NCBI GenBank assembly: GCA_009787445.1
Contig: WRFX01000008.1
Coordinates: forward strand, 1 to 34,501
DNA length: 34,501 nt
Reading direction: 5' to 3'
DNA from: Chitinivibrionia bacterium
GTDB lineage: Bacteria; Fibrobacterota; Chitinivibrionia; Chitinivibrionales; Chitinivibrionaceae
Shown: positions 2,330 to 20,868 of the stretch, piece after piece
How positions within the stretch are numbered: position 1 is the stretch's first letter
How the letters are laid out: each line of letters opens with the position of its first letter
The notes under the pieces: model-generated
What the model was told of the DNA's origin: nothing
What the model saw: only the letters and a program-made list of their open reading frames with translations
The model's database searches: none
Program-made: the position numbers and the translations under genes

Positions 2330-2338
2330 GCTAAATTT

Positions 2339-4498: not shown

Positions 4499-4522
4499 AA
4501 ACAAAAAACGATGGTATTGTCG

Positions 4523-4543
4523 TTTGCCAAATAGTATTTTTAT
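4523..4543 (+). promoter_or_regulatory. Shared promoter motif facing the 45-codon ORF
   Basis: The plus strand reads GCCAAATAGTATTTTTAT, matching GSCNNATAKTATWTT. A start site predicted from TAGTAT (4532-4537) falls within a few bases of the ATG at 4547, so the transcript would be nearly leaderless. Confidence 0.5.
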
Positions 4544-4546
4544 CTT

Positions 4547-4684
4547 ATGAAATATAAAAATTTAAGAGAAAAAGAGATAAAAAACCGTGTCGAAGATGAA
4601 TTTTTCCCCGATTTCGATTGCGACAGCATTTTGCAAAACGTCACGTCGATTTTTCATCGACAATTAAAATCATTTTTCTGCTAA
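4547..4684 (+). pseudogene. 45-aa ORF, probable N-terminal remnant of a restriction-modification-type protein
   Basis: The product begins MKYKNLREKEIKNRVEDEFF, continues to an FDCDSIL segment and stops after 45 residues. The opening LREKE-KN-V--D-F---FDC resembles, from memory, the first residues of some Type II restriction-modification methyltransferases (Eco57I-like). Nothing of such an enzyme follows, so this looks like the stub left by a deletion. It has its own promoter motif directly upstream and no clear ribosome site. It could instead be a genuine small protein. The similarity is a recollection, not a search result. Confidence 0.35.
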
Positions 4685-4714
4685 ATCCGCTTCCAAATTG
4701 AATCAAAAAGAAAA

Positions 4715-5190
4715 TTAAAACATTGTTATGTCGGCAAGTTTATAACTTTTCACGTTGCCGTTCGGAGACAATGCCATTGCGCTATACTTCCAAACTCCTC
4801 CGGCTTCCCAATTGTTTATGTTGGCAATAGCGGTTCCGATAAGATATTCGTTTTCATCGTACAAATTAAAAGTTATTTGCGCATAACTGTACGTTTTGTT
4901 TGTTTTGTTGCGCAGGGCTCTCCCTGTATATATAAAGAAAACATATCCTGTTTTACGCTCGCCGCCTCAACTACTTCATATTTGTCGCTGTTGTCTTTTT
5001 GTTTAATACTGTTTGCAACATCACTACTTCCGGAACTAACAGCGTCTATAAAGAAATATACGCAAATAAAGGCAATAAACAATGAAAGACAGACGCCTAT
5101 TATTTTTGTATTCCCCGATACTATTACTTTTCCGCATTTTGGACACTTGTTTCCTTCAAAATTTTCAACGCAATCATGACAAAAAGCCAT
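4715..5190 (-). pseudogene. Zinc-ribbon / membrane / FxLYD-domain protein, split by a frameshift
   Basis: The frame starting at 5190 gives 105 aa: a zinc ribbon with C4, C7, C16 and C19 (CHDC...CPKC), a membrane segment (IIGVCLSLFIAFICVYFF), a polar linker, then DMFSLYIQG followed by unrelated residues to a stop at 4873. Just before that stop another minus-strand frame carries a clear FxLYD domain: NKTNKTYSYAQITFNLYDEN, then GTAIANINNWEAGGVWKYSA, ending at TAA 4715-4717. Joining the frames near 4915-4930 gives about 157 aa with the usual ribbon-TM-FxLYD order, so a single indel (mutation or sequencing error) is likely. FxLYD proteins are small envelope proteins of unknown function. The start has AAAGGATG upstream. 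Confidence 0.7.
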
Positions 5191-5207
5191 AAATCATCCT
5201 TTTTGTT

Positions 5208-5226
5208 ACGCAGTATCAATCTGCGT
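5208..5226 (-). other. Small stem-loop in the 5' leader of the zinc-ribbon gene
   Basis: ACGCAG (5208-5213) pairs with CTGCGT (5221-5226) across a 7-base loop. It lies between the promoter motif at 5250-5270 and the start codon at 5190. It could affect translation or be chance. Confidence 0.3.
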
Positions 5227-5249
5227 TAATTTATAAAACAAATAATATA

Positions 5250-5270
5250 ATTAATATAATATTTGGCGCA
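5250..5270 (-). promoter_or_regulatory. Shared promoter motif for the zinc-ribbon/FxLYD gene
   Basis: The minus strand reads GCCAAATATTATATTAAT, an exact match to GSCNNATAKTATWTT. It implies a leader of about 60 bases before the ATG at 5190. Confidence 0.5.
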
Positions 5271-5354
5271 AACGAAAAGCAAGAATTAAAATTATAATTT
5301 TTCTTCAAGAAAAGCAATTATCGCGAAATATCAAAAACAAAATCGCATTCGGAT

Positions 5355-5375
5355 TGCGGCGAATAGTATTTTTTC
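5355..5375 (+). promoter_or_regulatory. Shared promoter motif for carB
   Basis: The plus strand reads GGCGAATAGTATTTTTTC, matching GSCNNATAKTATWTT. The predicted start is about 40 bases before the carB ATG. The rest of the 5191-5417 gap is AT-rich and shows no gene. Confidence 0.5.
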
Positions 5376-5417
5376 AACTTAAAATACGCGATTATTACAA
5401 AAATAAGGGATAATTGA

Positions 5418-8400
5418 ATGCCAAAAAGAAATGATTTACACAAAATTATGATTATCGGAAGCGGACCTATAGTTATCGGTCAGGCGTGCGAATTTGACTA
5501 TTCGGGAGCGCAGGCGTGCAAGGCGCTCAAACAGGAAGGTTACGAAATCGTTTTAATAAATTCCAACCCCGCGACCATTATGACCGACCCGAATATGGCT
5601 GACAAAACATACATAGAACCAGTTACTCCCGAAGTCGTTGAAAAAATTATCGCCCGCGAACGCCCCGACGCTTTTTTGCCCACGATGGGCGGACAAACCG
5701 CGCTGAATACCGCAATGACAATGAGCCAAAGAGGCATTCTCGCCAAATATAACGTAGAACTCATAGGCGCAAACGAACAGGCGATTTTGCTTGCCGAAGA
5801 CAGAAGCGAGTTCAAAAAAGCGATGAACGAAATCGGACTTGAAATGCCCAAAGCAAAAATTGCGCATACGCTCGAAGAAGCGTGGGAAATTGCCGACGAA
5901 TTCGGTTTTCCGTGCATTGTTCGTCCGAGTTTCACTATGGGCGGAACGGGCGGCGGAATCGTTTATGAACGCGGCGAATTTGAAGCGGCGGCAAAAAAAG
6001 GACTACTTTTGTCTCCCACAAGCGAAATTCTTATTGACGAATCGGTTTTGGGCTGGCAAGAACTCGAAATAGAAGTAATTCGCGACCACAAAGACAAAGT
6101 TATCGTAATTTGTTCAATAGAAAACCTTGACCCGATGGGAATACATACGGGCGATTCCATAACCGTCGCTCCCGCGCAAACATTAACGTTTGAACAATAC
6201 GCAAAAATGCGCGACGCGGCTGTCGCAATGATTCGCAAAGTAGGCGTTATCGGCGGAAGCAATATTCAGTTTGCGATAGACCCAAACAACGGACGAATGC
6301 TCGTTATTGAAATGAATCCGCGAGTTAGCAGAAGTTCGGCTTTGGCAAGCAAGGCGACGGGTTATCCGATTGCGAAAGTCGCGGCAAAATTGAGCGTTGG
6401 CTATTCTTTGGACGAAATTATGAACGATATTACGCGCAAAACTCCCGCGTCGTTTGAGCCGACGATAGATTATGTAGTAACGAAAATTCCGAGATTCGCG
6501 TTTGAAAAATTTCCCGAAGCGGACGCCCGACTCGGCGTTCAAATGAAAGCGGTCGGCGAAATAATGTCAATCGGTCGAACATTCAAAGAAAGTTTGCAAA
6601 AAGGACTTCGAGGACTCGAAACGCGCCACGCAGGTTTTGAAACGACAAAATACGCCGATTATTCCGTAGAGCAAATTAAAAACGAACTGAAAGAACTTTC
6701 GCACGACAGAATATTTATTGTTAGAGCCGCGATGGACAAAGGAATTTCGGTCGACGAAATTTTCGATATTACCAAAATAGACAGATGGTTTTTAAATAAT
6801 ATGAAAGATATTGTGGATTTTGAAAAGAAATTAAAAGAAATTAAAAATATAAGCGAAAACGAGCGAAAAGAATTGTTTGCGGAAGCGAAAATTATGGGAT
6901 TTTCGGACGCGCAAATAGCAAATTTAAACGGAATTTCGGAACTTGACGCGCGCAAAATTCGCGTTAAAGAAAAAATTATTCCCGTGTATAAATCCGTAGA
7001 CACTTGCGCGGCAAAATTCGACACTTTTGTGTCGTATTATTATTCGACTTACGAAAAAGAAAACGAATCTCTCGTTAGCGACAAACGAAAAATTATGATT
7101 TTAGGCGGCGGACCAAACAGAATCGGACAGGGAATAGAATTTGATTATTGCTGTTGTCAAGCGGCTTACGCGCTAAAAGAATTGGGAATCGAGAGTATTA
7201 TGGTAAATTCCAACCCCGAAACCGTGTCGACCGATTACGATACTTCGGACAAACTTTATTTTGAACCGCTTACTTTTGAAGACGTGATGAACGTTATAGA
7301 CCACGAAAAACCCGACGGCGTTATTGTGCAGTTCGGCGGTCAAACTCCGCTTAATTTGGCGAAAAAACTTCGCGATTGCGGCGCAAAAATTATTGGAACT
7401 TCGGTAGAAAACATAAACAAGGCGGAAGACCGCGACGAATTTTCGGCTATGTGCAATAAATTAGGCATAAAACAGCCGCCAAACGGAATGGCTTCCACTC
7501 CCGAAGAAGCGATAGAAATAGCAAAGCGAATAGGATATCCGATTTTGCTTCGTCCGAGTTTTGTTTTGGGCGGACGCGGAATGAGAATTATTTATTCCGC
7601 CGACGGACTTGACAAATTTGTCGAGGAAGCAAAAGACGCGGGAGAAAATCGCCCCGTTCTTATAGACAAATTTATACAAGACGCGATAGAATTAGACGTC
7701 GACGCGGTATCCGACGGAGAACAAACAATAGTTTGCGGAATTATGGAACATATAGAAGAAGCGGGCATTCATTCGGGCGATTCCGCCTGCGTTTTGCCGC
7801 CGTATACTTTGCCGCGAAGAATTGTAAAAGAAATAAGACAAATTACCGAAAACGTCGCAAGCGAACTTAAAGTCGTCGGACTTATGAACATACAGTTTGC
7901 CATAGACGGAAACGACATTTATATTATAGAAGTAAATCCGCGAGCAAGCCGCACGGTTCCTTTCGTGAGCAAGGCGACGGGAGTCGCGTGGGCGAAAATT
8001 GCGGCGAAAGTTATGACGGGAATTATGTTAAAAAACATTGCCGAAGCGCAAGTCCCTAATATGGATTATTTTGCGGTAAAAGAAGCGGTTTTGCCGTTCA
8101 ATAAATTTCCGGGCTCCGACACGATGCTTGGTCCCGAAATGAAATCGACGGGCGAAGTAATGGGAATAGACAAGGATTTTGGAATCGCCTATCTTAAAGC
8201 GCAAGAAGCGGCTTACAACAAACTTCCAAAAAGCGGCGCGGTTTTCATTTCGGTTCGCAATACGATTCGTCGCCATATAGTTTTTATGGCGAAAAAAATT
8301 CACGAACTCGGCTTCAAAGTTTATTCGACGGAAGGCACGGCGAAAATGCTCAACAATTACGGAGTTCCCGCAATTCCCGTACCAAAAGTCGGTATGGGAA

Positions 8401-8639
8401 AGCCGGATATTGTGGATATGATTCGCGCCAATAAGTTTGATTTACTTATAAATATTCCCGAAGGACAGCGCGCGCTTTTGGACAGCAAACCTATTCGCAC
8501 GGCGGCGGTTTTGCAAAAAATTCCTTACATAACGACAATAGAGGCGGCTCAAGCGGCGGTCGCGGGAATGGATTCGTTAGCGAAACAGGATTACGGCGTA
8601 AAAACGATTCAGGAATACGGAAAAGAAACAAATTCATAA
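5418..8639 (+). CDS. carB: Carbamoyl-phosphate synthase large subunit
   Basis: At 1073 aa this is full length. The enzyme makes carbamoyl phosphate from bicarbonate, ATP and ammonia supplied by CarA, feeding pyrimidine and arginine synthesis. Both duplicated synthetase halves are present: the first opens [20 protein letters not shown] and has [12 protein letters not shown], the second opens [20 protein letters not shown] and has [12 protein letters not shown]. Each half has the NP(R)xSRS/SRT segment ([22 protein letters not shown]). The C-terminal ~130 residues form the MGS-like allosteric domain ([15 protein letters not shown]). No carA lies within the window, so the two subunits are not adjacent here. 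AAGGGA precedes the ATG. Confidence 0.98.
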
Positions 8640-8824
8640 AAATTATTATTCATAAATTTGCAAAATAACAAAAAAAACAACAAAATTTATTGTTAATTTA
8701 TAAAAAGCGCATATAAACAAAAGCGCGTAATAAATTGTTCATACTCTGTTCTCCCGTTTGTTTGGCATAGATTTTTAACTAATTCTTATTTTAATTTCCG
8801 AAATTAAATTACGGAGGTTAAAAT
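8640..8824. other. Gap between carB and the TonB-receptor operon: probable promoter and operator region
   Basis: AT-rich and without an ORF. It holds TTTGGCATAG at 8761-8770, resembling part of the shared promoter motif but not matching it fully, then the palindrome at 8790-8808 and the ribosome site GGAGG just before the ATG at 8825. No convincing terminator for carB is visible. Confidence 0.5.
8790..8808. promoter_or_regulatory. 19-bp perfect palindrome, candidate operator of the receptor operon
   Basis: TTTAATTTC-C-GAAATTAAA is a perfect 9-1-9 palindrome ending 16 bases before the lipoprotein ATG. Size, symmetry and place fit a dimeric repressor site; metalloregulators of the Fur/Zur family use sites of similar layout, but the sequence is not a recognisable Fur box. 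Its AT content makes partial chance origin possible. Confidence 0.5.
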
Positions 8825-9598
8825 ATGAATTTACGTCATTTTTTTATATACGCGCTCGCCGTCGCGATGTTTTTTGGCTGCGCGTCAAACGATACGCCGG
8901 AAGTTTCGTCCGCGACTATCGATTATTATTTCGCTAACGATACGGCATTCGGCGAAGGAGCGGTTAATTTTTCTACGGGAAACGCCGTTTGGACAATAGA
9001 AAAAGCGATGATGGTCGCAGGCGAAATAGGAATACACTGGGAAGAGCCGAACGCGCCGCGGGGAATACGACACGATGTTCCCGGTGGAAAGATTTCGCCT
9101 AAAATCTACGGATATTTCGCCGTCGATTTGCTGAAAACGCAGAATATCCAGAAACTTAAAGTTCCCGACGAAGGCAAATATTCGCATATCCATATGATTA
9201 TAACAAACGACGAATACGTCAAAACTTTGGGCGATACGGTGAAAAACATAAAAAACTATTCCGAACTTAAAGGTCGCTCGTTCTATTTTTCGGGTATAGT
9301 CGGCGACGACAAAACGCAATATCCCTTTGAACTTTATTCTTTGGAAACATTTGACGAAAACTCTATGGGCGACATAACTTTTAATCTTCCCGTTTATGAA
9401 GGCGACGCTTTTTCATTTTATATATCGCCGAAACTTGAACGCTGGTTTACTCCCATACGTTTTGAACTCTTGCGTCCAAACGAAGATGGCAAAATTATAA
9501 TTCACGAAAAAAGCAACGCTACGGCGTATTTGGCTTTTCGTCAAAGATTTACGGAAAACAAATCTATGAATTTAGTCATTAAAAACGAGAAAAAATAA
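8825..9598 (+). CDS. Lipoprotein LP1, partner of the TonB-dependent receptor
   Basis: A 257-aa protein with a lipoprotein signal (AVAMFFGC, lipobox Cys at about residue 19), so probably anchored in the outer membrane. GGAGG lies 7 bases before the ATG. I recognise no named family. It shares a block order with LP2 (12456) and LP3 (13704): a histidine segment H-x10-RH (IHWEEPNAPRGIRH), YFAVDLLK, a turn ending EGKYSH, FYFSG, FELYSLE and a C-terminal SPKLERWF. The stop overlaps the receptor ATG by one base (TAATG), so the two are translated together. This suggests LP1 works with the receptor, perhaps as a surface ligand binder. The family link is judged by eye. Confidence 0.75.
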   Translation: MNLRHFFIYALAVAMFFGCASNDTPEVSSATIDYYFANDTAFGEGAVNFSTGNAVWTIEKAMMVAGEIGIHWEEPNAPRGIRHDVPGGKISPKIYGYFAVDLLKTQNIQKLKVPDEGKYSHIHMIITNDEYVKTLGDTVKNIKNYSELKGRSFYFSGIVGDDKTQYPFELYSLETFDENSMGDITFNLPVYEGDAFSFYISPKLERWFTPIRFELLRPNEDGKIIIHEKSNATAYLAFRQRFTENKSMNLVIKNEKK

Positions 9599-11610
9599 TG
9601 GCGAAATTCATAATAATTTTTATTTTTGCTTTCTTGTGCGCCGCGCAGGAAACTATAGATATGGGAACGATGGTTGTGCGGGACAGTATAATTTTACTCA
9701 CGAAACAGCAGGACAAAATTGCGATTGTCGATACCGTTTCGCGCAAAGAAATTGAACGGACGACTGCGACAAATTTAATCGATTTGCTCGACGGCAAACT
9801 CGGCGTGCGCAAAAAAGTCGATTGTTCCGTTTGCAATACCGCGCATATTCGCCTTTTGGGGCTTAACGGCGCGTATTCGCAAATTCTTATAGACGGCGTT
9901 CCCGCATATTCTGGCTTGGGAAATATTTATGGAATCGAGCAAATTCCGCTGGTAAATATAGATAATATATTGATTGTTAAGGGAGCGTCGAGCGTGCGGC
10001 ACGGAAACAACGCGATTGCGGGCGTAGTGGATATTATTCACAAACCGATTTCTTTCGATACGAAAACGTATTTCAAGATGGCGTTGGGAAATCATAACGA
10101 GCAAAATTACGACGCTTATTTTTCTACGTTTGTCGAAAAAAGCCAAACGGGCGTACAAATTTCTATGGCTTACGCAAATTCGCCGCGCATAGATATGGAC
10201 AGTTCCACTCCTATGATGGACGTCGCGGAATTTGACCGCGTAAATTTTTCGCTGCGTTTGTCGCAGGAAATAAAAAGTACGCAAATTTTCGCAAACGCGC
10301 AGACAGCATACGAAGACAGATTTGGCGGCACGCAAAATTCGTCGCGCAAATACATAGGAAATTTCCAGCCGGAAAGCACTTATATCGACGAATGGGGAAA
10401 TACGGTTTTTCGTCCGCTGATATATCAGGAATATGCGCGGACAAGGCGCGTAAATTACGAAATCGGAAGCAAAACCGAAATAAATCCGATTGTTACGAAT
10501 GAAAATCGCGCAAGTTTTATTCAGCATTATCAGGACAGTTACTACGGCTATCTGTCGCTTGAAGCGTTGCAAGATATGCTTTTTGCGGTTTCGGATTTTC
10601 ATTTTGATTTTTACAAAAATAAACTGCTCGCGGGCGTAAGTTACACTTACGATAAATTTTACGACGACCGTTCCATCGGTTCGCATTTGTATAATATTTT
10701 AGCGATATATTTGCAAAATATTTTTGTTATAAACGAACTTTTTGACGTTTCCGCAGGTTTGCGCGGCGATTTTCATAACGTTCACGGATTTATTTTGTCG
10801 CCGCGTTTCGCTTTTAATTATTACGCAAATCACCATCTTAATTTCAAAACGACGGCGGGCAAAGGATTCAGGACTTTCAATTTATTTTCGGAAAATCACT
10901 CGGCGACCACAAGCGACGTTTATTATTTGGAACCGGTAGAAAATTTACGCGAAGAAAGTTCTTGGACTTTCGCGCAAAACGTGCAATATTCGCAATTTTG
11001 GCGCGTTAATTTGGGAATTACGGCGGAGGCGACGGCTTATCAAACGGTAATATCCGATTATATTCAGGCGCAATATTTGCGAAGATATACCGCCGACGGA
11101 CGTCAAATTGTGCGCTATCGCAATCTTGACGGAACCGCGATAACTCGCGGATTAGAAGGAGTAGCGCGTTTTTCTTTGCCGAAGGGTTTTACGCTTGAAG
11201 GCGGCGCGACTTTGCTTGATTTTGAATCGAAAAACGAAACGGAGAAAAATTTTTCGTATTATTCGCCAAATTATACGGCTCTGGCGAAAATTCAATGGGA
11301 CAATAGAAAAAGCGGTCTAGTTTTGTCTTTTGACTGGAATTATACGGGAAGGCAACTGCTTCGCGAAGTTCGCTTCGGACAAAAACTTATTATGCCCGAA
11401 AGATACGGCGAACCGTATTCGATTTTCAGCGCGCAAATAGAAAAGCGGCTCGCAAGATTTACGTTTACGGCGGCGTGCAATAATATCGGGGACTTTTATC
11501 AATCCAAAATCGAGCCGATTTTTTACGCGGACGGTTGGTACTATCAAACGACTTCGGTTTGGGCGCCGATTAAGGGTAGAACGTTTTATTTCGGTTTGCG
11601 ATTTAATTAG
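9598..11610 (+). CDS. TonB-dependent outer-membrane receptor (metal/chelate type inferred)
   Basis: A 670-aa protein: signal peptide (residues 1-16), a TonB-box-like stretch (ETIDMGTMVV), plug domain (about 40-150), then a beta-barrel ending FYFGLRFN. The plug shows the usual LLDGKLGVR, IRLLGLNG-YSQILIDGVP, GIEQIP, I-I-VKGASSVRHG and AIAGVVDII signatures. Unusually, it has DCSVCN (C76 and C79) just before IRLLGL. The short length and lack of SusC features fit receptors for metals, metal chelates or cobalamin better than glycans. Its start is one base into the LP1 stop codon with only a weak ribosome site, so coupling is likely. Downstream TonB and lipoproteins belong to the same run of genes. 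The true ligand is not evident. Confidence 0.9.
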   Translation: MAKFIIIFIFAFLCAAQETIDMGTMVVRDSIILLTKQQDKIAIVDTVSRKEIERTTATNLIDLLDGKLGVRKKVDCSVCNTAHIRLLGLNGAYSQILIDGVPAYSGLGNIYGIEQIPLVNIDNILIVKGASSVRHGNNAIAGVVDIIHKPISFDTKTYFKMALGNHNEQNYDAYFSTFVEKSQTGVQISMAYANSPRIDMDSSTPMMDVAEFDRVNFSLRLSQEIKSTQIFANAQTAYEDRFGGTQNSSRKYIGNFQPESTYIDEWGNTVFRPLIYQEYARTRRVNYEIGSKTEINPIVTNENRASFIQHYQDSYYGYLSLEALQDMLFAVSDFHFDFYKNKLLAGVSYTYDKFYDDRSIGSHLYNILAIYLQNIFVINELFDVSAGLRGDFHNVHGFILSPRFAFNYYANHHLNFKTTAGKGFRTFNLFSENHSATTSDVYYLEPVENLREESSWTFAQNVQYSQFWRVNLGITAEATAYQTVISDYIQAQYLRRYTADGRQIVRYRNLDGTAITRGLEGVARFSLPKGFTLEGGATLLDFESKNETEKNFSYYSPNYTALAKIQWDNRKSGLVLSFDWNYTGRQLLREVRFGQKLIMPERYGEPYSIFSAQIEKRLARFTFTAACNNIGDFYQSKIEPIFYADGWYYQTTSVWAPIKGRTFYFGLRFN

Positions 11611-11731
11611 AAATTGTGTATGTTACATTTAACTTTATATGAAAGGAGTTTCTTAAATGAAACGATTGAAAAACAGTTTGACGGTATCTGCGATAACCGT
11701 TGCGTTGGGAATGTTCTTTTTTGTCGGTTGC
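11607..11731 (+). repeat. Leader plus lipoprotein signal-peptide cassette, copy 1
   Basis: This segment matches 13640-13778. Shared parts are TTAGAAATTGTGT upstream, ATGAAAGGAGTTTCT with the ribosome site, and an identical 50-base run (11682-11731) encoding most of the signal peptide. Similarity stops at the lipobox Cys, after which the two genes are unrelated. Confidence 0.85.
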
Positions 11732-12436
11732 AGCGACAAGGACGATGAAAGCCCTGTAACCCAAAAAACCATAAACGGAATAGAGTGCGTTTTGGTTGAA
11801 AAAGGAACGTTTTATATGGGAAGTCAGGAAAGCGAAAGAGAAAAACCCAACGACGAGGTTTATCATAAAGTTACTTTAACGAGGAATTTCTGGATAGGTA
11901 AATATCCCGTAACAAACGAACAGTACGGCAGAGAAGTTTCGGACGACAGGAAAAAACATCCTGTCGTAAACGTAACTTGGGCGGATGCGAAAGCGTTTGC
12001 GGAAAGTAAAGGCGGATTTCTCCCGACCGAAGCGCAATGGGAATACGCGGCGAGAGGCGGCAATAAAAGTAAAGGTTATAAATACAGCGGCGGCGACAAT
12101 TTGGATGAAGTCGCGTGGTATGAAGGTAATTCGGGCTGGTCACTACGCACCGTTGGAACTAAAAAAGCCAACGAACTGGGAATTTACGATATGACCGGAA
12201 ACGTATGGGAATGGTTGTCGGATTTTTACAATTCTTACGGCGTTGAAGAAAATACAGGAACAAGAACCGACCCCGATATTCAAAATGTAGAAGAACTTTG
12301 CTGCGGTGAAATTCGCAATAATCGCGGAGGTTCCTACGATACAGGCGAGTCAAATAGCCGTATTGCGTATCGCGAAGCGAGCCAACCGGGATACAGCGGC
12401 GGATATACCGGATTTCGCGTGATTTTCTACGATTGA
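11657..12436 (+). CDS. SUMF1/formylglycine-generating-enzyme-fold lipoprotein
   Basis: A 259-aa protein with a lipoprotein signal (GMFFFVGC), then one SUMF1 (FGE-sulfatase) domain over about residues 38-258. Fold motifs are clear: FYMGS, VTLTRNFWIGKYPVTNEQYG, HPVVNVTWADAKAFAE, LPTEAQWEYAARGG, GIYDMTGNVWEWLSDFY, NNRGGSYD and TGFRVIF. The catalytic cysteine pair of true formylglycine-generating enzymes, expected in the segment here reading SRIAYREASQPG, is missing, so it is probably a binding or structural domain rather than a sulfatase activator. AAAGGAG precedes the ATG. It sits 46 bp after the receptor gene and 19 bp before LP2, inside the TonB operon. Confidence 0.9.
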   Translation: MKRLKNSLTVSAITVALGMFFFVGCSDKDDESPVTQKTINGIECVLVEKGTFYMGSQESEREKPNDEVYHKVTLTRNFWIGKYPVTNEQYGREVSDDRKKHPVVNVTWADAKAFAESKGGFLPTEAQWEYAARGGNKSKGYKYSGGDNLDEVAWYEGNSGWSLRTVGTKKANELGIYDMTGNVWEWLSDFYNSYGVEENTGTRTDPDIQNVEELCCGEIRNNRGGSYDTGESNSRIAYREASQPGYSGGYTGFRVIFYD

Positions 12437-12455
12437 TAAAACGAGAGTTTGGATT

Positions 12456-13619
12456 ATGAAATTGAAAAAAAATTTACGGTGCTTACTAATAATTGCGGCG
12501 GTATTGGCGGTAATGTTTGTCGGCTGCGGCAAAGACGACGACGGCGAAAAATTTACGATTACTTACAATGCAAACGCCGCCAATTTCAGCGGAAAACTAC
12601 CCGCTTCCGTTTCCGTTAACGCGGGAGAATCCGTAAAACTCGCAACCGACAACGAATATTTTAACCGCTGGAACGAAAGAATTTCGCTTGACGGATGGAA
12701 TACGAAAGACAATGGAAGCGGAACGGACTACGGCGTTTCGCAGGTAATCGTCCCGACGCAAAGTATGACGCTTTACGCGCAATGGAAACCGTTTGGAGTC
12801 GGAACCGTTGAGTTTTACGTCGGCTCAAAAATATACGTCGGCGAATATTTTTCTTATAACGGGTTTAAGGCGACTATCGATACGGCGGTAATGATAATCA
12901 AATATCCGACTGTTTACGCGGTTCACGACGAGTATAATCCGAGAATTTTAAGGCACTCGGCGGGCGAATATACTTTGGGAGACCCTGACGGCAATCAGTC
13001 GATATGCGAAACATACGCCGTCGATTTGCTCAAACCGCAGGAATCTTATTTGGGAAATATAGAAGGTTTAGACGAAGGATTTTACGGCGACCCTTACGTT
13101 AGAGTTTTTTGTCCCTGCGCGGACGGCAAAAACGCGGATTTATGGTGGGAACTTGTTAAAGATGTCGATACTCCGTCGAAACAAATTTTGAAGGAGAAAG
13201 ACGCGGGATATTATTTCGCGGGAAAAATTGAAGTTGATTCGACCGCATCGTCGCCGGCTAAAACTTACGCTTACGAACTCGTAGGCAAAAAAGAAATCGG
13301 TCCCGTAGGCGTTTATTGGGAAAAAGCGGCTAATCTGAATGACAAAGAAACTTTGTCCGTAAAATTTCGTCCGCATATAGAGCGTTGGTTTGAAGTTCTT
13401 GAAAAATACAAAGTATATGAAAAGGCGCAAGAAATGGCGCGTGAAGAGCGTATTGTTTTCAGCGATTTAACTCTTAAAGATTTTTTGCCGAGCGTCGCGC
13501 TTCCAGCAGGAAAAACGCTTATGGATTTAATTTACGCCGAACTTGACAACGATTACGATGAACGCGGATGGAATACTTTTTTAAGCGGCGGCTGGGACGT
13601 AGAATTTTCGATAAAATAA
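12456..13619 (+). CDS. Lipoprotein LP2 with N-terminal InlB-type repeat
   Basis: A 387-aa lipoprotein (lipobox VMFVGC). Residues about 30-110 match the Listeria-Bacteroides (InlB B-) repeat: ITYNANA, GESVKL, LDGWNTKDNGSGTDY and MTLYAQWKP. From about residue 120 it follows the LP1/LP3 pattern: IDTAVMIIKYPT, VHDEYNPRILRH (H-x8-RH), CETYAVDLLKPQ, GFYGDPYVRVF, KDAGYYFAGKI, YAYELVGK and RPHIERWF. It resembles LP3 more closely than LP1. The InlB-like module may present the C-terminal domain away from the membrane. Same operon as the receptor. No named family recognised for the main domain. Confidence 0.78.
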   Translation: MKLKKNLRCLLIIAAVLAVMFVGCGKDDDGEKFTITYNANAANFSGKLPASVSVNAGESVKLATDNEYFNRWNERISLDGWNTKDNGSGTDYGVSQVIVPTQSMTLYAQWKPFGVGTVEFYVGSKIYVGEYFSYNGFKATIDTAVMIIKYPTVYAVHDEYNPRILRHSAGEYTLGDPDGNQSICETYAVDLLKPQESYLGNIEGLDEGFYGDPYVRVFCPCADGKNADLWWELVKDVDTPSKQILKEKDAGYYFAGKIEVDSTASSPAKTYAYELVGKKEIGPVGVYWEKAANLNDKETLSVKFRPHIERWFEVLEKYKVYEKAQEMAREERIVFSDLTLKDFLPSVALPAGKTLMDLIYAELDNDYDERGWNTFLSGGWDVEFSIK

Positions 13620-13639
13620 TTCTGCGGTGAAGTAAAAAT

Positions 13640-13778
13640 TTAGAAATTGTGTTTCTTATATTGTCTGTTTTATGTTTAATTTTTTTATGAAAGGAGTTTC
13701 TGAATGAAACTTTTGAAAAACAGTTTGGCGGTATCTGCGATAACCGTTGCGTTGGGAATGTTCTTTTTTGTCGGTTGC
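13640..13778 (+). repeat. Leader plus lipoprotein signal-peptide cassette, copy 2
   Basis: Second copy of the 11607-11731 cassette. The identical 50-base core is 13729-13778. This copy has an insertion of about 14 bases between TTAGAAATTGTGT and the ribosome site. Confidence 0.85.
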
Positions 13779-14837
13779 GACGACGGAAAAGAAATTGAAA
13801 TTATCAAAGAACCCGACGGCGAAAAAGAGAAAACTACCGCGCGGATTTCGTTTTACGGCGGCGGCGAAAGGAGAGGCGCGGCAGATTGGCAATTCGGCAC
13901 AAACGCGCATTTGGACAATTTATACGACAATACCGAGCCGACGTCCAGATGGTATTATCCAAGTACGTCGGGAACTGCTTTGGACGGTACACCTGTGAAC
14001 CATCAGAGTTACGGATTTTACGCAATGACGATTGACACGGCGTATATCATATTGAAATATCCTACGCTTTCCGCCGGTCATTTTGACCAGCATAGCAGTA
14101 GCGTAAGGCACGCCGCCGCCGACCATACGCTGACGGAAAATGTCGACCCGTCTTCACCTGACCCGGAACATCCGATTTGCGAGACGTACGCGGTGAATTT
14201 AATGAAACCGTTGCAGCAATATTTGGGTTCGGTTACAGTAGAACCGGGTCAATACGGAACGCCGTGGGTGAGAGTGTTTTGGCCCGGCGCGGACGGCGCA
14301 AACGCGGCTAATTGGTGGAATCGCGTCAAAGACGTTGACCCCGACAAAAAGGCAAAGCAAGTTTTGCAGGCGAAAAACGCCGGATATTATTTTAGCGGCA
14401 GAATCACTATGTTTGAACAACCCGTCGTCGGCGATACGGTGTTTATTCCTTATACTTATGAAGTCCAAAGTCGCGCGGAACTCGGACCGCAGACCTGGGG
14501 CGGAAATAATTATTGGGATGTAGGCGCAGGGCAGACGCTTCATTTTAACATACATCCGCATTCAGACCATTGGCTCGGACGTTTCCGCGATTTTCAGGTG
14601 TATTTGGATTTGGCGACGCTTAAAGAACCCGATACCGAGTCGCGTAAAAATCACGTAATTTTCAGCCCCGAAAAATTGGCGGGTTATACGCTTCGTCCCC
14701 GTTATACAGGCACGACTGCGGTTACGGCGGGTTGGAATTTTATGAATTTGATTGACGGCGAATTTTATCCCAGACAGGGATTCGATTCGGATTTTACAAT
14801 AGTTTTAGACGACGGGAGAATCAGAGGGCTTGATTAA
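13704..14837 (+). CDS. Lipoprotein LP3, paralogue of LP2
   Basis: A 377-aa lipoprotein whose signal peptide is nearly identical to that of the SUMF1 lipoprotein at 11657. The mature part has the LP family pattern: IDTAYIILKYPT, a His-rich segment GHFDQHSSSVRHAAADH, CETYAVNLMKPLQQYLG, GQYGTPWVRVFWPGADG, KNAGYYFSGRI, YTYEVQSR and a C-terminal HPHSDHW. It has more histidines than its relatives, which suggests metal or metal-ligand binding (inference). AAAGGAG precedes the ATG. The tonB start lies within its last codons, so it belongs to the same transcript. Confidence 0.78.
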   Translation: MKLLKNSLAVSAITVALGMFFFVGCDDGKEIEIIKEPDGEKEKTTARISFYGGGERRGAADWQFGTNAHLDNLYDNTEPTSRWYYPSTSGTALDGTPVNHQSYGFYAMTIDTAYIILKYPTLSAGHFDQHSSSVRHAAADHTLTENVDPSSPDPEHPICETYAVNLMKPLQQYLGSVTVEPGQYGTPWVRVFWPGADGANAANWWNRVKDVDPDKKAKQVLQAKNAGYYFSGRITMFEQPVVGDTVFIPYTYEVQSRAELGPQTWGGNNYWDVGAGQTLHFNIHPHSDHWLGRFRDFQVYLDLATLKEPDTESRKNHVIFSPEKLAGYTLRPRYTGTTAVTAGWNFMNLIDGEFYPRQGFDSDFTIVLDDGRIRGLD

Positions 14838-15531
14838 AACAGGCAGTTTTTTCAGGCGGCGCGAAGATAATATTTGCGCCGCCGTTTTCTTTTCGGCGAT
14901 AATACATATCGCCTTTTTCGCATTTTTGTTTTCTTTTCGGGAAGCAAAACCCGTGCCTAATTTAGAAAAATCTTACGCGCTTGTAACGCTTGTAACTCCT
15001 CGACAAACGCCGCCTGCAACAGAACCGCCCGCGCAAGTAAAACGGCAAATTTCCAAACAAAATCGGCGGTCTTTGCAAAGCGATGAAAAATCGTTTGTTC
15101 CGTCCGAAACATCTGCCGAAATTGAAAATTTTATCGAAAATTCTATGGAAACAAACGGCGATTTTACCGAACAAATTGAAGCAGACGGCGAAATCGGCGA
15201 AATCGGCGACATTGAAAAAGCGGAAAATTCAAACGTCGCGACCGAATTGACGCAAGAATTTACTAATGCGCCGAAAACGCTTTATATGCCGCAAATTCCA
15301 TATCCAAAAGCGGCAAAAAACGAAAAAATTGAAGGAATTGCCGAAATATCATATATTATCGATACTGCGGGACGAGTGAGCGAAATAGAAATTTTATCGA
15401 CTCCGCACGCTTCGTTTGAAAACGCGATAAGAAAAACGGTTCTTTCGTGGCGTTTTACTCCCGCTACAAAAAACGGAAAAGCGGTTTCCGTAAAAGCGAG
15501 CAAAAAAATCGTATTTAAGTTGAAAGATTAA
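14830..15531 (+). CDS. tonB: TonB energy-transducing protein
   Basis: A 233-aa protein with one N-terminal membrane anchor (about residues 17-36), a Pro/Gln-rich then acidic periplasmic linker, and a C-terminal TonB domain (about 150-233) with PQIPYPKAAKNEKIEGIAEI, VSEIEILST and VLSWRFTPATKNGKAVSV. It transmits proton-motive force from ExbB/ExbD to outer-membrane receptors; exbBD are not in the window. The chosen start is TTG at 14830, which overlaps the LP3 stop by 8 bases, with GGGAG 11 bases upstream. No other start keeps the membrane anchor. Its place at the end of the operon suggests it is dedicated to the 9598 receptor. Confidence 0.9.
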   Translation: MIKTGSFFRRREDNICAAVFFSAIIHIAFFAFLFSFREAKPVPNLEKSYALVTLVTPRQTPPATEPPAQVKRQISKQNRRSLQSDEKSFVPSETSAEIENFIENSMETNGDFTEQIEADGEIGEIGDIEKAENSNVATELTQEFTNAPKTLYMPQIPYPKAAKNEKIEGIAEISYIIDTAGRVSEIEILSTPHASFENAIRKTVLSWRFTPATKNGKAVSVKASKKIVFKLKD

Positions 15532-15667
15532 AAGTTTTTCAATGAATAAATGTGTAAATTATCTTAAAAAAAGAAAAAAAATATGAAATAATTCCGTAAA
15601 AGTACGGCGAAATTTATTATATTTGCCTTGCAATAAAGTAAATAGATAAGCAACGAAAGGTTAAAAT
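15532..15667. other. Gap between tonB and the NtrC-type regulator
   Basis: AT-rich, no ORF. CCGTA-AAAG-TACGG (15595-15608) is a short palindrome, directly followed by GGCGAAATTTATTATATTTG, a looser form of the shared promoter motif with two extra bases. GAAAGG precedes the regulator ATG. No clear terminator for tonB. Confidence 0.4.
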
Positions 15668-17053
15668 ATGGATAAACCAAAAATTTTAGTTGTCGACGAC
15701 GACAAACATATGCGCGGCTCGGTCGTCGAGTTTTTGGAATACGGCGAGCAATACCAAATTTTTGAAGCGATAAACGGACAAGCCGCTTTGGAAGTTATTG
15801 CGCAAGAAAATCTTTCGGCAATAGTAAGCGACATAAAAATGCCGATTATGGACGGACTTCAATTATTAGATAACCTTGTTAAGCGGGAAAGCAAAATTCC
15901 GTTTATAATAATGACCGCTTTCGGCGACGTAAAAACCGCCGTCGACGCGATGAGCAAAGGGGCTTACTATTTTATAGAAAAAGGAAGCGATTCTTTTACC
16001 GACCGTCTTGAAGCGATACTTACGCGAGCCGTCGAAAAGAACAATTTAGTACGCGAAAACACGCGGCTCGTCAAAGAAAACACAGTTCTAAAAACCGCGC
16101 TAAAAGGCAAATGGCAATATATCGGACAATCGAAGCAAATAAAAGAAATTCAAAAAACGATAGAGACGATAGCGTCGAGCAAATCGACTATTTTGGTAAC
16201 GGGCGAATCGGGAACGGGTAAGGAAATGATTGCGAAATCGATACACGCGTTAAGCAATCGTTCGGGCGGTCCGTTCGTAAAAGTAAATTGCGCGGCGCTT
16301 CCCGAAAGTTTAATTGAAAGCGAACTTTTCGGACACGAAAAAGGCGCGTTTACGGGCGCGCTAAAAACTCGTTTGGGTAAATTTGAACTCGCAAACGGCG
16401 GAACATTGCTCTTGGACGAAATAGGCGAAATGCCGCTTGGAGTGCAGGCAAAACTTCTGCGCGTTTTGCAGGAACGGGAAGTCGATAAAATAGGAGGAGA
16501 CGTACCGGTTTCGGTCGACATTCGTCTTATTGTTACGACAAACCGCGACTTGCAAAAAGAAGTTAAAAACGGGACTTTCCGCGAAGATTTGTATTATCGT
16601 CTTAACGTCTTTCACTTTGAATTGCCGCCTTTGCGTGAAAGAAAAGACGACGTTCCCGATTTGATAAATCACTTTATCGCAAAATACAACGAAGAAAACG
16701 GTTTTTCGGTTTCGGGCGTTTCAAAAGGTGCGCTTGAAGCGTTGAAAAATTATGATTTTCCGGGAAATATCCGCGAACTTGAAAATATTATCGAGCGTTC
16801 GGTCGTTTTGACGAGCGGCGGCGAATTGAGCGAAGAATCGCTTCGTTTGGGCAAAGCGAAAGAACTTCCCGTTGAAATATCCAAAGGACTCGCCGTCGGG
16901 AAAACCGTCGCGCAGGTCGAAAAAGAACTTATTTACGCCACCCTTGAACATTGCAAAAACAACAAGACGCAAGCGGCGGAAATAATGGATATTTCGGTGC
17001 GTACTTTGCGCAATAAACTCAAAGAATACGGCGACGCTTCGGCGGAAGAATAG
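15668..17053 (+). CDS. NtrC-family sigma-54-dependent response regulator
   Basis: A 461-aa protein with the three standard parts. The receiver (about 1-120) has acidic D10-D12 and phospho-acceptor D55 in IVSDIKMP. The AAA+ domain (about 150-380) has Walker A GESGTGKE (179-186), GAFTGA sigma-54 contact loop (226-231) and GGTLLLDEIGEM. The C-terminal Fis-type helix-turn-helix ends NKTQAAEIMDISVRTLRNKLKEYG. When phosphorylated it should activate sigma-54 promoters. No histidine kinase is encoded nearby, so its partner is elsewhere. It lies 136 bp after tonB on the same strand, but I see no clear -24/-12 promoter in the window, so its link to the uptake operon is unproven. Confidence 0.95.
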   Translation: MDKPKILVVDDDKHMRGSVVEFLEYGEQYQIFEAINGQAALEVIAQENLSAIVSDIKMPIMDGLQLLDNLVKRESKIPFIIMTAFGDVKTAVDAMSKGAYYFIEKGSDSFTDRLEAILTRAVEKNNLVRENTRLVKENTVLKTALKGKWQYIGQSKQIKEIQKTIETIASSKSTILVTGESGTGKEMIAKSIHALSNRSGGPFVKVNCAALPESLIESELFGHEKGAFTGALKTRLGKFELANGGTLLLDEIGEMPLGVQAKLLRVLQEREVDKIGGDVPVSVDIRLIVTTNRDLQKEVKNGTFREDLYYRLNVFHFELPPLRERKDDVPDLINHFIAKYNEENGFSVSGVSKGALEALKNYDFPGNIRELENIIERSVVLTSGGELSEESLRLGKAKELPVEISKGLAVGKTVAQVEKELIYATLEHCKNNKTQAAEIMDISVRTLRNKLKEYGDASAEE

Positions 17054-17121
17054 TTTTATATAACTTTTATACACATAACATAACGCTTAATCGCTACTTC
17101 TTCACTCCCAATTTTGCGGGA

Positions 17122-17149
17122 TAGCGATAAACTTTTCCGTTTATTGCTA
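17122..17149 (+). terminator. Hairpin after the NtrC-type gene, possible terminator
   Basis: TAGCGATAAAC (17122-17132) pairs with GTTTATTGCTA (17139-17149), an 11-bp stem with one G-U pair and a 6-base loop. The following bases are T-rich but lack a pure T run. ATCGCTA at 17090-17096 could pair with the same left arm, so an alternative fold exists. Confidence 0.45.
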
Positions 17150-17223
17150 CTATTTCTTTAATAAAAAATTTATAAAAATATTTTTTCTCGTTTTTTATCA
17201 AAAATAAAAATTATATTACAAAT

Positions 17224-17369
17224 GTCGAGAATTGTGAATAGTGAATAAACTCACTATTTATTGATATTTTTATTTTTTTTAACAAAGCGACAAAACTTCC
17301 TTGTGGTTGTTTCTGTCCGTCGCTTTGTTATATCTAAAATATCATTGTAAAAAAATCACAATTCTCGAC
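17224..17369. mobile_element. MITE-like or structured-RNA element with 14-bp inverted termini
   Basis: Perfect 14-bp terminal inverted repeats GTCGAGAATTGTGA (17224-17237) and its complement (17356-17369), each flanked by AAAT, as a target duplication would be. Inside are two further perfect stems: AATAGTGA/TCACTATT (17237-17244/17251-17258) and AACAAAGCGAC/GTCGCTTTGTT (17281-17291/17319-17329). If transcribed, it could fold as a three-way junction. No transposase is present. Whether it is a miniature transposon or an RNA cannot be told from one copy. Confidence 0.5.
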
Positions 17370-17505
17370 AAATTATGATTTATGGACGAAACAACCTTTT
17401 CGTTGTCTTTTTCCGCAATTCATAATTTTTTAATTTCGGCAATAACAATAACGTTTTTGCATAAATTTTAATTTGCGGTTCAAAGGCAAAGAAAGGCGAC
17501 TTATT

Positions 17506-19206
17506 ATGAGCAACATTAAAGGATGCGTGTTTTTAAATTCAATTTCGCAACAGTTCACATTTCAGCAAGACAACTCAAAAAATTCTATGGATTTTTTGAA
17601 CGATAAAATATCCGTATCGGGAAGCGGAATTCCTGAAACTTTTTGCTTTGACGTTTCTCAAAACGGCGGTTGGTCGTGGATTGTTTGCGGTATCGGCATA
17701 ATTGAATCCCGCTTTATTACAAAAACCGAATGGAAACAAATTATTCAACGGGACAATATTGAATTTGATAAATTAGACGGACACTATATTATACTTCGCT
17801 GGAAAGATAATTTTGTCGAATTTTATAACGACCCGCTGGAATTGAGAAAATTATACTGGAAAAAAGAAAAAGATAAAATATTATTCGCAACGCAACTTGT
17901 CGATATGGCGGATATGGTTGAAAATGCGGAGTTTTCGTTTGAAAATTATGCGGGATATTCGCGATTTATAAATTCTTTCGGCGGCGGCGCTTTGTTAAAA
18001 GGCGTAAAAAGGTTGGGGACAGGCGGTTGTCTAAAAATCGAAAAAAATGAAATTTTTCATAAAGATAGTCAATGGGACATAAAACAACAAAGCAGTGAAG
18101 ATTTTTCTGTTGAGAAATTAAAATCAATAGTGAATATGAAAATGCCGAATCGTGAAAAACCGTTATTGGCTTTGTCGGGCGGAATAGACAGCAGAACGGT
18201 TTTGGCATTGTTTGATGAATTACCAGATTTGCTAAATTTTGGGAACATTGAAGACGCCGACGCGCAAGTTGCAAAAATTATAGCCGATAAATTAAAAAAG
18301 AATCTTTGTTTTTATGAGTATAAACTTCCGCAAACGGCAGATGAAAAAAATATTGTTTTTGACAATATAAAAAAAGCAATTCTTTGGGAAACATCGGATG
18401 TAACCGCAAATCTTTTCGGTTTGCTTGAAGAAAAAAACAAAGAAGGTTATTGGCTCATAGACGGCGGTCTCGGCGAAGTTCTTCGTTTCGGTTACGGAAG
18501 AAAATTTTTATATACAGCCGAAAATCTTTGGAAACAAAATGATTTTAATTCTCTTGCAAAATATATGTATAAAAAGCAATACGATATTTTTAATAAACAA
18601 TTACAAGAAGATATGAATATTTGGGCTTTGCAGGAGTTTGTTTCGGCGATGGAGAAAATGCCTAAAAACATTTCTTTTGAAGATTGGATTTCTTTATTTC
18701 ACATAATATACAGAGTAAAAAATTGTCCGCTTAACGGACAAGGCGCATACGACAATATAATTCCGTCTTATATGCCGCTGATACAACCGTCGGTGTTGCG
18801 TTCGCTGCAATCAATACATATCAAAAAAAGAATGAATTGCCGTATTAACAGAAAAATAATTTCACAATTTCAACCGATTTTAAGTTCCGTGTCGTTAGCG
18901 TGGTATGAATCAAAAGTCCCGTTTTGTTTGAGTGGGAATATTGTTCTTGCTAAATTATATTCTATTGTTTGTAATAAATTGAAAAAGCAAAAACAAGAGT
19001 ATAACGACAAATTAATGTTTTCTCTAAAAGAGTTGGTTATGGACAGAATAAATACGAGCGCGGTAAAACAATGCGCTTGGTATAATATGAAAAACATTAG
19101 CGAATTTGCGGAAATGTTTTATAGTGGAAAAACAGAAAACTCGCAATTTTTGTACGATTGGCTGCAAATAGATTTCTGGCGGGAGAAGTGCGCGGAAAGA
19201 ATATAA
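17506..19206 (+). CDS. Asparagine-synthetase-like (PP-loop) protein
   Basis: A 566-aa protein of the AsnB-like family. ATP-binding PP-loop LALSGGIDSR is at about residues 221-230, and the N-terminal part keeps the fold signature YNDPLELRKLYWKK...ILFATQL seen in asparagine synthetases and lasso-peptide cyclases. The nucleophilic Cys2 needed to release ammonia from glutamine is absent, so it is unlikely to be a simple glutamine-dependent asparagine synthetase. It may form an amide on a peptide, sugar or natural product using another amine. The start at 17506 was chosen for GAAAGG 9 bases upstream; a TTG at 17473 is less likely. Its base use is more AT-rich than its neighbours, which hints at acquisition. 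No precursor peptide or partner gene is visible. Confidence 0.8.
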   Translation: MSNIKGCVFLNSISQQFTFQQDNSKNSMDFLNDKISVSGSGIPETFCFDVSQNGGWSWIVCGIGIIESRFITKTEWKQIIQRDNIEFDKLDGHYIILRWKDNFVEFYNDPLELRKLYWKKEKDKILFATQLVDMADMVENAEFSFENYAGYSRFINSFGGGALLKGVKRLGTGGCLKIEKNEIFHKDSQWDIKQQSSEDFSVEKLKSIVNMKMPNREKPLLALSGGIDSRTVLALFDELPDLLNFGNIEDADAQVAKIIADKLKKNLCFYEYKLPQTADEKNIVFDNIKKAILWETSDVTANLFGLLEEKNKEGYWLIDGGLGEVLRFGYGRKFLYTAENLWKQNDFNSLAKYMYKKQYDIFNKQLQEDMNIWALQEFVSAMEKMPKNISFEDWISLFHIIYRVKNCPLNGQGAYDNIIPSYMPLIQPSVLRSLQSIHIKKRMNCRINRKIISQFQPILSSVSLAWYESKVPFCLSGNIVLAKLYSIVCNKLKKQKQEYNDKLMFSLKELVMDRINTSAVKQCAWYNMKNISEFAEMFYSGKTENSQFLYDWLQIDFWREKCAERI

Positions 19207-19221
19207 ATTTGAATTAAAAAC

Positions 19222-19259
19222 AAAAAATATTAGGGAGATTATTCTCTCTAATATTTTTT
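19222..19259. terminator. Bidirectional intrinsic terminator
   Basis: Arms 19222-19238 and 19243-19259 form a 17-bp stem with one G-U pair and a 4-base loop, A-rich on one side and T-rich on the other. It can end both the AsnB-like gene (plus) and the helicase gene (minus). Confidence 0.85.
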
Positions 19260-19326
19260 AATTACCGAATGCCACCTTGCGCACTTTGCATTTTCTTATC
19301 AAAATGCTTATTCTTTTTCTTATTAT

Positions 19327-20868
19327 TTATACCCTGAACAGTACGGGGAAATGTTTGCCGTTATTCTTTTGTTTTTTGTTTTTATCAAACCGCCTGTTTT
19401 TCCATTCGTCAAATTCGTTTGATTTATTTTCGTAATGCTGCTTTCCCGATTTTGCGTTTTTCCCCGATTTGTAAAATTTTTCGGACTTGTTGTGCTTGCC
19501 AGATTTCTCAAATTCTTTTTTGCGGTCTTTCTTAAAATCGTCTTTTTTGGGCTTTACGGGAGTTAATTCGTTATAATTTTCGGTATCGAATTTATCTCCG
19601 TAAGCCGCCGAAATAAGGGTGGAAACCAACTTTTCGGGACTGTAATTCATAAGCAATTCTTTCGCCCATTCTTCAAAATTTTGCAAATCGTCGTCGTTGA
19701 ACAATCCGTCTATTTCCTTTGAAATTTTGCGTTTTTGCTCCGCCATAATTTCGGGAACGGTCGGAACTTCTTTCTTTTTTATGTCCGCTTTCGTAATTTT
19801 TTGCAAAAAGCCGAGTTTGCGAAATTCGCTCGGAGTAACAAAAGTTATAGCCGTTCCTTTTTGCCCGGCGCGACCCGTTCTGCCTATTCTGTGAACATAC
19901 GCTTCGGGATTTTGCGGAAGAGAATAATTTATCACGTGCGTCAAATCCGAGACGTCTATTCCTCTTGCGGCGACGTCGGTGGCGACCAAAACGTTTATGA
20001 TTTTTTTGCGGAATTTCGTCAAAATTCTTTCGCGCAAAAACTGCGAAATATCGCCGTGAAGCGCGTCCGCAGAATATCCTCTGTCGGTCAAACGGGACGC
20101 AATTTCGTCGGTTTCGGTTTTTGTGCGGCAAAAAACTATGGCGTAAAAATCGTCTTCCATATCGATAATTCTGCAAAGCGCTTCAAACCTGTCGCGCTCA
20201 AAAACTTCAAAATAAATCTGGTCGGTCAAATTCGTCGTCATCTGCGTTTTCGTTTTCAGCGTAATCGGGTCTTTAAGATATGTGTCCGCCAAATCCCGTA
20301 TTCGTTTCGGCATCGTCGCCGAAAATAAAAGCATTCTTTTTTTGGGATTCGATACGGAAATTATTTTTTCAATATCGTCTATAAATCCCATATTAAGCAT
20401 TTCGTCCGCTTCGTCCATAACAAGCGACGTTATTTTTGACAAATCGAGCGTTTTTCTGTCGATGTGGTCTAAAATTCTTCCGGGCGTGCCTACTACTATA
20501 TCGACGCCGTTTTTCAGTTGAAAAATTTGTCTGTCGTAGGACTGTCCGCCGTAAATCGGAGCGATTTTAAGCGGATTTTCGCCTCTTAACGAATTTAATT
20601 CTTCGCAAATTTGCACGACAAGTTCGCGGGTAGGAGCGACAATTAGCGCCTTAACGCCTTTTTTGCCGCTGTCAATAATTTCAATAAGAGGCAAGCCGAA
20701 CGCCGCGGTTTTTCCCGTTCCCGTTTGCGCCTGCGCTACAATATCGTCTTTGCCCGAAAGCATTGCCTCAATGGCAAGTTCCTGTATTTGCGTCGGCTCT
20801 TCAAAGCCCTTTTGCGTGATTGCTTTTAGTGTTCTGTCGGATAATCCGAGTTCTGAAAATTGTTTCAT
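19327..20868 (-). CDS. DEAD-box ATP-dependent RNA helicase
   Basis: A 513-aa DEAD-box helicase that remodels RNA, likely in ribosome assembly or cold adaptation. Ordered motifs: Q-motif (GFEEPTQIQ), I AQTGTGKT (47-54), Ia PTRELV, Ib TPGR, II DEAD (152-155), III SAT, IV VFCRTK, V VATDVAARGID, VI HRIGRTGRAG. After the core there is a short helical region and a Lys-rich tail with repeated KSGK/KSEK units, probably for RNA binding, but no recognisable DbpA/CsdA RNA-binding domain. AAGGA precedes the ATG, and an ATAGTATTTT promoter-like stretch lies near 20925. Close to DeaD/RhlE types; the exact name is not justified. Confidence 0.95.
   Translation of the reverse strand: MKQFSELGLSDRTLKAITQKGFEEPTQIQELAIEAMLSGKDDIVAQAQTGTGKTAAFGLPLIEIIDSGKKGVKALIVAPTRELVVQICEELNSLRGENPLKIAPIYGGQSYDRQIFQLKNGVDIVVGTPGRILDHIDRKTLDLSKITSLVMDEADEMLNMGFIDDIEKIISVSNPKKRMLLFSATMPKRIRDLADTYLKDPITLKTKTQMTTNLTDQIYFEVFERDRFEALCRIIDMEDDFYAIVFCRTKTETDEIASRLTDRGYSADALHGDISQFLRERILTKFRKKIINVLVATDVAARGIDVSDLTHVINYSLPQNPEAYVHRIGRTGRAGQKGTAITFVTPSEFRKLGFLQKITKADIKKKEVPTVPEIMAEQKRKISKEIDGLFNDDDLQNFEEWAKELLMNYSPEKLVSTLISAAYGDKFDTENYNELTPVKPKKDDFKKDRKKEFEKSGKHNKSEKFYKSGKNAKSGKQHYENKSNEFDEWKNRRFDKNKKQKNNGKHFPVLFRV

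Follow-up and report, generated by a model that had tools for sequence, protein, structure and literature searches.

A TonB-dependent uptake operon with paralogous lipoproteins in Chitinivibrionia, and the arguments for a metal cargo

An outer-membrane receptor that is encoded together with several related lipoproteins and a TonB protein raises the question of what it imports. Such an arrangement lies at positions 8825-15531 of a 34,501-nucleotide stretch of a Chitinivibrionia bacterium (assembly GCA_009787445.1, contig WRFX01000008.1, positions 1 to 34,501 of the forward strand), the whole of which is referred to here as the window. A preliminary description of this DNA had reported six co-directional genes, with overlaps or short gaps, that form an outer-membrane uptake unit. 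The six open reading frames (ORFs), all on the + strand, have the coordinates and frames described, and the domains of a TonB-dependent receptor (TBDT), lipoproteins (LPs), and TonB were found among their products. We interpret the operon as encoding a TonB-dependent importer that is assisted by lipoproteins and takes up a transition-metal ion or a small metal complex, an interpretation to which we give a probability of roughly 55%. It is supported by the joint inheritance of the TBDT and the homologous LPs, by invariant histidines in the LPs, by a CxxC motif in the receptor plug, and by an in-operon TonB within the genus. As cargo, heme, cobalamin, and glycans are less likely than a metal under DtxR/Fur control (Fe, Mn, or Zn).

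The lipoproteins and their receptor

The first gene of the operon encodes LP1 (8825-9598), a predicted lipoprotein of 257 amino acids (aa) that represents the founding subfamily and has the lipobox FFGC, and its stop codon overlaps the start codon of the TBDT gene by 1 nucleotide (TAATG). The TBDT (9598-11610, 670 aa) has a Pfam Plug domain (3e-17, 63.5 bits, cut-off 23.9) and a barrel of the 22-strand type (7e-16, 59.5 bits, cut-off 27); within the plug motif DCSVCN, Cys76 and Cys79 (CxxC, 9823-9834) are invariant in three orthologues. After a gene for a SUMF1-fold lipoprotein, which is considered further below, come LP2 (12456-13619, 387 aa) and LP3 (13704-14837, 377 aa), both predicted lipoproteins. 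The last gene encodes TonB (14830-15531, 233 aa, TTG start), which has a TonB_C domain (6e-16, 59.1 bits, cut-off 24.6) and an N-terminal hydrophobic segment visible in its sequence. The LP3 and TonB genes overlap by 8 nucleotides, and the remaining gaps within the operon are 19-84 nucleotides long. Lipoboxes are present in LP1, LP2, and LP3 by pattern match, and acidic residues follow the lipobox cysteine in LP2 (CGKDDDGE), LP3 (CDDGKE), and the SUMF1-fold protein (CSDKDD); an acidic stretch at this place resembles the surface-export signals of Bacteroidota lipoproteins. In the region upstream of the operon, no Rfam element was found, promoter-like and terminator-like matches were about as frequent as chance, and no operator was assigned.

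Judged by their sequences, LP1, LP2, and LP3 are true paralogues. LP2 and LP3 are 39% identical (E = 4e-41), while the LP1 and LP2 families, aligned by hhalign with the signal peptides removed, reach 67.6 across 199 columns (E 2.6e-9); the reversed alignment gave 13.1, and none of 60 column-shuffled decoys exceeded 23.3. That the LPs could not be matched to a known family, as stated previously, holds: their shared core has no match in Pfam, NCBIfam, or PHROG, and neither LP3 nor the LP profile found a match among PDB sequences. LP1 and LP3 have no significant family match along their length, and LP2 has only a sub-threshold List_Bact repeat (residues 33-109), which lies N-terminal to and outside of the shared core. 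A motif-pattern scan of genome contigs for further LPs gave no match; neither did the LP profile in 386 Bacteroidota genomes and 82 genomes of the phylum of the KSB1 locus discussed below, sets that contain no positive control and thus make a weak negative.

The block order that the preliminary description had noticed in the three LPs is real, save for its PHxERW block, which is exact in LP2 only (PHIERW), reads PHSDHW in LP3, and lacks the histidine in LP1 (PKLERW), where HIH (H121 and H123) is found in its place. The H-x8-10-RH motif, on the other hand, is exact in all three, with a spacing of x10 in LP1, x9 in LP2, and x8 in LP3. Across all seven known LPs, seven columns are invariant (I58, A61, H71, H83, A99, L102, and G157 in LP1 numbering), two of which, H71 and H83, are the histidines of the H...RH motif, in agreement with the earlier claim of conserved histidines. 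His 71, 83, 121, and 123 of LP1 are invariant in three genomes, and LP2 contains 3 histidines in 387 residues, each of them at a motif position. The corresponding histidine region in the LP2 of a relative (G004, see below) reads VHAGTKGRHAGHIHGEG. Residues that bind a metal or heme would be expected to show a pattern of this type.

The LPs and a close TBDT co-occur, in conserved order, in the same three of 168 genomes of the window's phylum and in none of the others. In a genome of the same genus (G001, locus L008), LP1, TBDT, a single long LP (642 aa), and TonB follow one another as in the window, with nothing separating TBDT from LP; the TBDT is 60% and the TonB 41% identical to its counterpart in the window. 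The LP1 orthologue is 38% identical in G001 and 41% identical in G004, a genome of the same family in which LP1-TBDT lies at one contig end and TBDT-LP2, without TonB after it, at another. Because the two TBDT fragments of G004 match complementary parts of the profile, an LP1-TBDT-LP2 join is inferred. From the distribution in the three genomes, the ancestral unit is therefore likely to have been LP1-TBDT-LP2, joined in the genus by TonB. Only in the window's genome were LP3 and the SUMF1 gene seen; both relatives have two LPs, and LP2/LP3 is a local duplication. The three divergent binders per receptor, which had been noted as unusual, therefore describe a single genome and not the design of the system, which has two binders.

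A receptor-based scan of genome contigs returned only the contig of the known relative (L029) and distant receptors from KSB1 and Sphingobacterium. The G004 receptor (L023:14020-14418, - strand) ends in a histidine-bearing C-terminal tail, KHDESVPHGH, that has no counterpart in the window receptor, and a match of G004 LP2 to Esterase_PHB (19 bits, cut-off 23) was taken as chance. The window's genome contains just two further Plug-domain receptors; the gene for one (contig C30) is followed by that of a large exported protein, and the gene for the other (contig C27) by that of a lipoprotein of unknown family.

The CxxC plug class and the choice of cargo

The plug CxxC sits directly before the xIRxxG strand, and the same motif recurs in distant receptors from Sphingobacterium, Persicobacter, Prevotella, Bacteroides finegoldii, and KSB1; it is common to a broad receptor class, and not peculiar to this system. 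Among the plugs inspected from Leptospira and Haliscomenobacter receptors, it was not seen. In 61 Bacteroidota genomes, a plug profile gave 18 matches at E <= 2.3e-31, distributed over 17 genomes, and the remainder at E >= 5.6e-24. The CxxC is present in all 18 of the strong matches and in none of 20 weaker ones examined. The genes within 4 kb of these receptors differ as well: a DtxR-family regulator is encoded at 8/18 CxxC loci, a thioredoxin-like protein at 7/18, and a histidine-rich small protein at 4/18, as compared with 0/20 non-CxxC loci in each case (p = 9e-4, 0.003, and 0.04, respectively). Any of DtxR, Fur, or a histidine-rich protein occurs at 12/18 CxxC loci vs. 0/20 (p = 7e-6), with six CxxC loci having neither a metalloregulator nor a histidine-rich neighbor. 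HmuY shows the reverse distribution (0/18 vs. 6/20, p = 0.02). Among the neighbors of CxxC receptors, DtxR, FUR, FeoB, Nramp, and MerC domains were confirmed by Pfam, and some control receptors have, by eye, other metal-related neighbors (cation-efflux-like at L134; ArsR-like and heavy-metal-like at L137). The neighborhood comparison favors a transition metal as what the CxxC class imports and argues against heme; together with the invariant LP histidines, it bears out metal as the likely cargo class proposed in the preliminary description. By analogy, we infer that a transition-metal cargo may extend from the class to the window's clade. The CxxC motif parts metalloregulator-linked from HmuY-linked receptors and provides a testable handle on a class strongly represented in 17 of the 61 sampled Bacteroidota genomes. 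To our knowledge, few receptors for non-heme metal import across the Gram-negative outer membrane have been identified, for instance ZnuD (Zn) and OprC (Cu). Among the papers found in literature searches on CxxC plugs, Zur-linked Bacteroides TBDTs, and DtxR-linked TBDTs, none describes the CxxC class in its title or abstract.

Directly upstream of CxxC receptors in Bacteroidota and KSB1 are genes for small, histidine-rich, membrane-like proteins with a motif of the HTHxLPDGxxxxHSH type (L117:4520-4990, L118:6003-6365, L122:4245-4619, L132:4486-4863, L052:4116-4496, and L047:626-1018). By Pfam or inspection, five of these six belong to no clear family, with one weak HTTM match below the cut-off. 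Exported thioredoxin-like proteins are encoded downstream of several CxxC receptors (L045:7232-7738, L118:3082-3555, L121:7239-7718, L128:7449-7916, L129:7053-7538, and L130:6900-7505), and it is conceivable that they act on the plug cysteines as redox partners.

In the proposed mechanism, LP1 and LP2/LP3 would be exposed on the outside of the outer membrane and bind a metal or metal complex through H...RH, together with the HIH of LP1 or the PHxxxW histidine of LP2/LP3. From them it would be transferred to the receptor, in which the plug cysteines would point into the extracellular cavity and, by analogy with a copper receptor discussed below, may serve as metal ligands, and uptake would be driven by the co-encoded TonB. 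Because thioredoxin-like genes lie downstream of several CxxC receptors, one may speculate that such proteins keep the plug cysteines reduced at those loci.

Several points weigh against a metal importer. The surface location of the LPs is itself part of the proposal, and their AlphaFold2 models are unusable (mean predicted local distance difference test, or pLDDT, of 35 for LP1 and 31 for LP2). The conserved LP histidines could be heme ligands or structural, and the plug CxxC could form a structural disulfide. No metal gene adjoins the operon, and neither a DtxR/Fur-type metalloregulator nor a histidine-rich small protein is encoded beside it in the window or at L008. The evidence that ties the CxxC class to metals is drawn from receptors about 23-27% identical to the window receptor, the neighbor classes were picked after the loci had been viewed, and some of the loci are related. 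A more specific, joint proposition is that LP1/LP2 found a new family of surface metal-capturing proteins feeding a bare ion of the Fe/Mn/Zn class to a CxxC-plug TBDT, and that the CxxC class is a widespread, uncharacterized import route for DtxR/Fur-controlled metals; this is offered tentatively, as one that we would sooner expect to fail than to hold.

Heme is the first alternative to be considered, since HmuY binds heme through two histidines. LP1 and LP2 would then be functional analogues of HmuY that feed an HmuR-like receptor and coordinate heme axially through their conserved histidines. The HmuY gene of Leptospira likewise precedes and abuts a TBDT gene, and the window receptor bears a weak similarity to models of heme receptors (TIGR01785, 2e-19, well short of the cut-off). 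PF14064 is unmatched in the LPs and in the whole genome, in a search whose positive control gave 9/21 Bacteroidota; in addition to this, HmuY neighbors no CxxC receptor in the comparison above, and the operon has no heme gene. Heme uptake is thus improbable. Equally unconvincing is the uptake of a ferric siderophore (xenosiderophore) or other organic metallophore in the manner of XusAB, for which the LPs would bind the chelate and not the bare metal. The pairing of lipoprotein and TBDT does resemble XusAB, and among solved structures, receptors of the CirA, FepA, and PfeA types give the best alignments with its plug and barrel. These, however, are the nearest TBDTs in general, the binding of a siderophore requires neither invariant histidines nor a CxxC, and the operon is devoid of siderophore-processing genes.

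Uptake of cobalamin or another corrinoid, with the LPs in place of BtuG/BtuH, is very unlikely. In NCBIfam the receptor has its top match to the B12 receptor model TIGR01779 (1.3e-19), but the 70 bits are far under the family cut-off of 600. An activation domain of B12-dependent methionine synthase is encoded on its own elsewhere in the window (24072-24836), which, on the other hand, contains no cobalamin riboswitch (Rfam). No DUF4465 or other B12-binding domain was matched in the operon (Pfam), and the relatives of the receptor in its plug class adjoin metalloregulators rather than btu genes. Least credible is a SusCD-like system for glycans or peptides with the LPs as surface glycan-binding proteins, for although there are several lipoproteins per TBDT and the List_Bact repeat of LP2 is frequent in surface proteins, Pfam gives no SusD or carbohydrate-binding family match, the receptor is short (670 aa) and without an N-terminal CarboxypepD_reg match, the operon has no hydrolase, and the LPs fall into no characterized glycan-binding family. 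Placement in such a family, or unconserved histidines, had been named in the preliminary description as counting against the uptake system that it proposed, and neither was found.

The SUMF1-fold lipoprotein and other features of the window

The gene between TBDT and LP2 (11657-12436, 259 aa) encodes a protein that matches Pfam FGE-sulfatase (5.5e-46, 157.7 bits), the fold of formylglycine-generating enzyme (FGE). It is without the active-site cysteine pair of FGE, as no cysteine is present in GGSYDTGESNSR, which aligns to the cysteine-bearing segment GGSFLCHESYCNR of a solved FGE; formylglycine-type catalysis is therefore unlikely. The gene had been presented as part of the uptake unit, yet it is absent from the operons of both relatives, and its product is interpreted as a local, probably non-catalytic accessory. 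The SUMF1 gene and LP3 share a leader of 119 bp (11613-11731 and 13660-13778, + strand, 89% identical) that comprises the ribosome-binding site and the signal peptide and ends exactly at the lipobox cysteine codon, suggesting that the export leader of one was copied from the other by local duplication.

Another contig of the same assembly (C19, locus L009) carries window positions 1-19839 at 100% identity and runs on beyond the left end of the window. The 19.8-kb copy is treated as an assembly duplicate, the contigs having the appearance of overlapping pieces that the assembly split at a repeat. Close to the left end of the window, at 109-297, 1173-1476, and 1649-1735, there are short direct repeats (80-100% identical) inside predicted ORFs of no known family. 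A 34-bp intergenic direct repeat, 91% identical and possibly a short interspersed element, is found at 4477-4510 and, 30 kb away, at 34332-34365. The stand-alone Met_synt_B12 domain at 24072-24836 (- strand, 1.5e-64) is usually the C-terminal part of MetH. A 577-aa ORF (17473-19206, + strand) contains the motif LALSGGIDSRT as in asparagine-synthase-type proteins, and has no Pfam match at E 1e-4.

Comparison with known systems

Among characterized systems, XusAB of Bacteroides offers a lipoprotein-TBDT pair in which the surface lipoprotein binds a xenosiderophore and hands it over to the co-encoded TBDT (PMC13142918). XusB is a single siderophore binder, whereas the operon has two or three LPs as well as TonB, and no PDB chain matches the LP family by sequence. 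In the HmuY-HmuR systems of Bacteroidota and of the Leptospira LB191-type locus, the gene for a small lipoprotein likewise directly precedes and overlaps that of the TBDT; the HmuY-linked receptors, in contrast, lack the plug CxxC, and the window LPs have no PF14064 match. The CxxC-plug class of Bacteroidota and KSB1 shares with the window receptor both the position of the CxxC and full-length homology, but its neighbors are DtxR/Fur regulators and histidine-rich small membrane or thioredoxin-like proteins instead of LPs. In OprC, a copper TBDT, Cys143 and Met147 of the plug are metal ligands (PMC8610252); OprC has CxxxM-HxM and no lipoprotein, and is likened to the window receptor by its plug cysteine and not by a homology comparison.

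For the LPs themselves, homology to MbnP (PF20243) was suggested by an initial E of 3.4e-6 but failed controls once the signal peptides were removed, and is no more than a lead. LP1 shows a weak colinear profile alignment with MbnP over about 207 columns and no match to PF20243 by hidden Markov model; the trimmed profile-profile score of 19-22 (22.0) exceeds those of 60 shuffles (maximum 17.0) but is below the reversed control (25.5). In the same profile test, DUF4382 remained within the decoy range. The zinc exoprotein ZepA of cyanobacteria, a secreted metal protein with the histidine motif H-x2-9-H-F/Y-H (PMC10957091), may be regarded as an analogue of the LPs by its short motif and not as a relative; PEP-CTERM export is described for it, and a TBDT partner is not. 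A surface lipoprotein combined with a TBDT and TonB is an already known kind of system, while the LP family, and the fact that it is paired with a CxxC-plug receptor, appear to be new.

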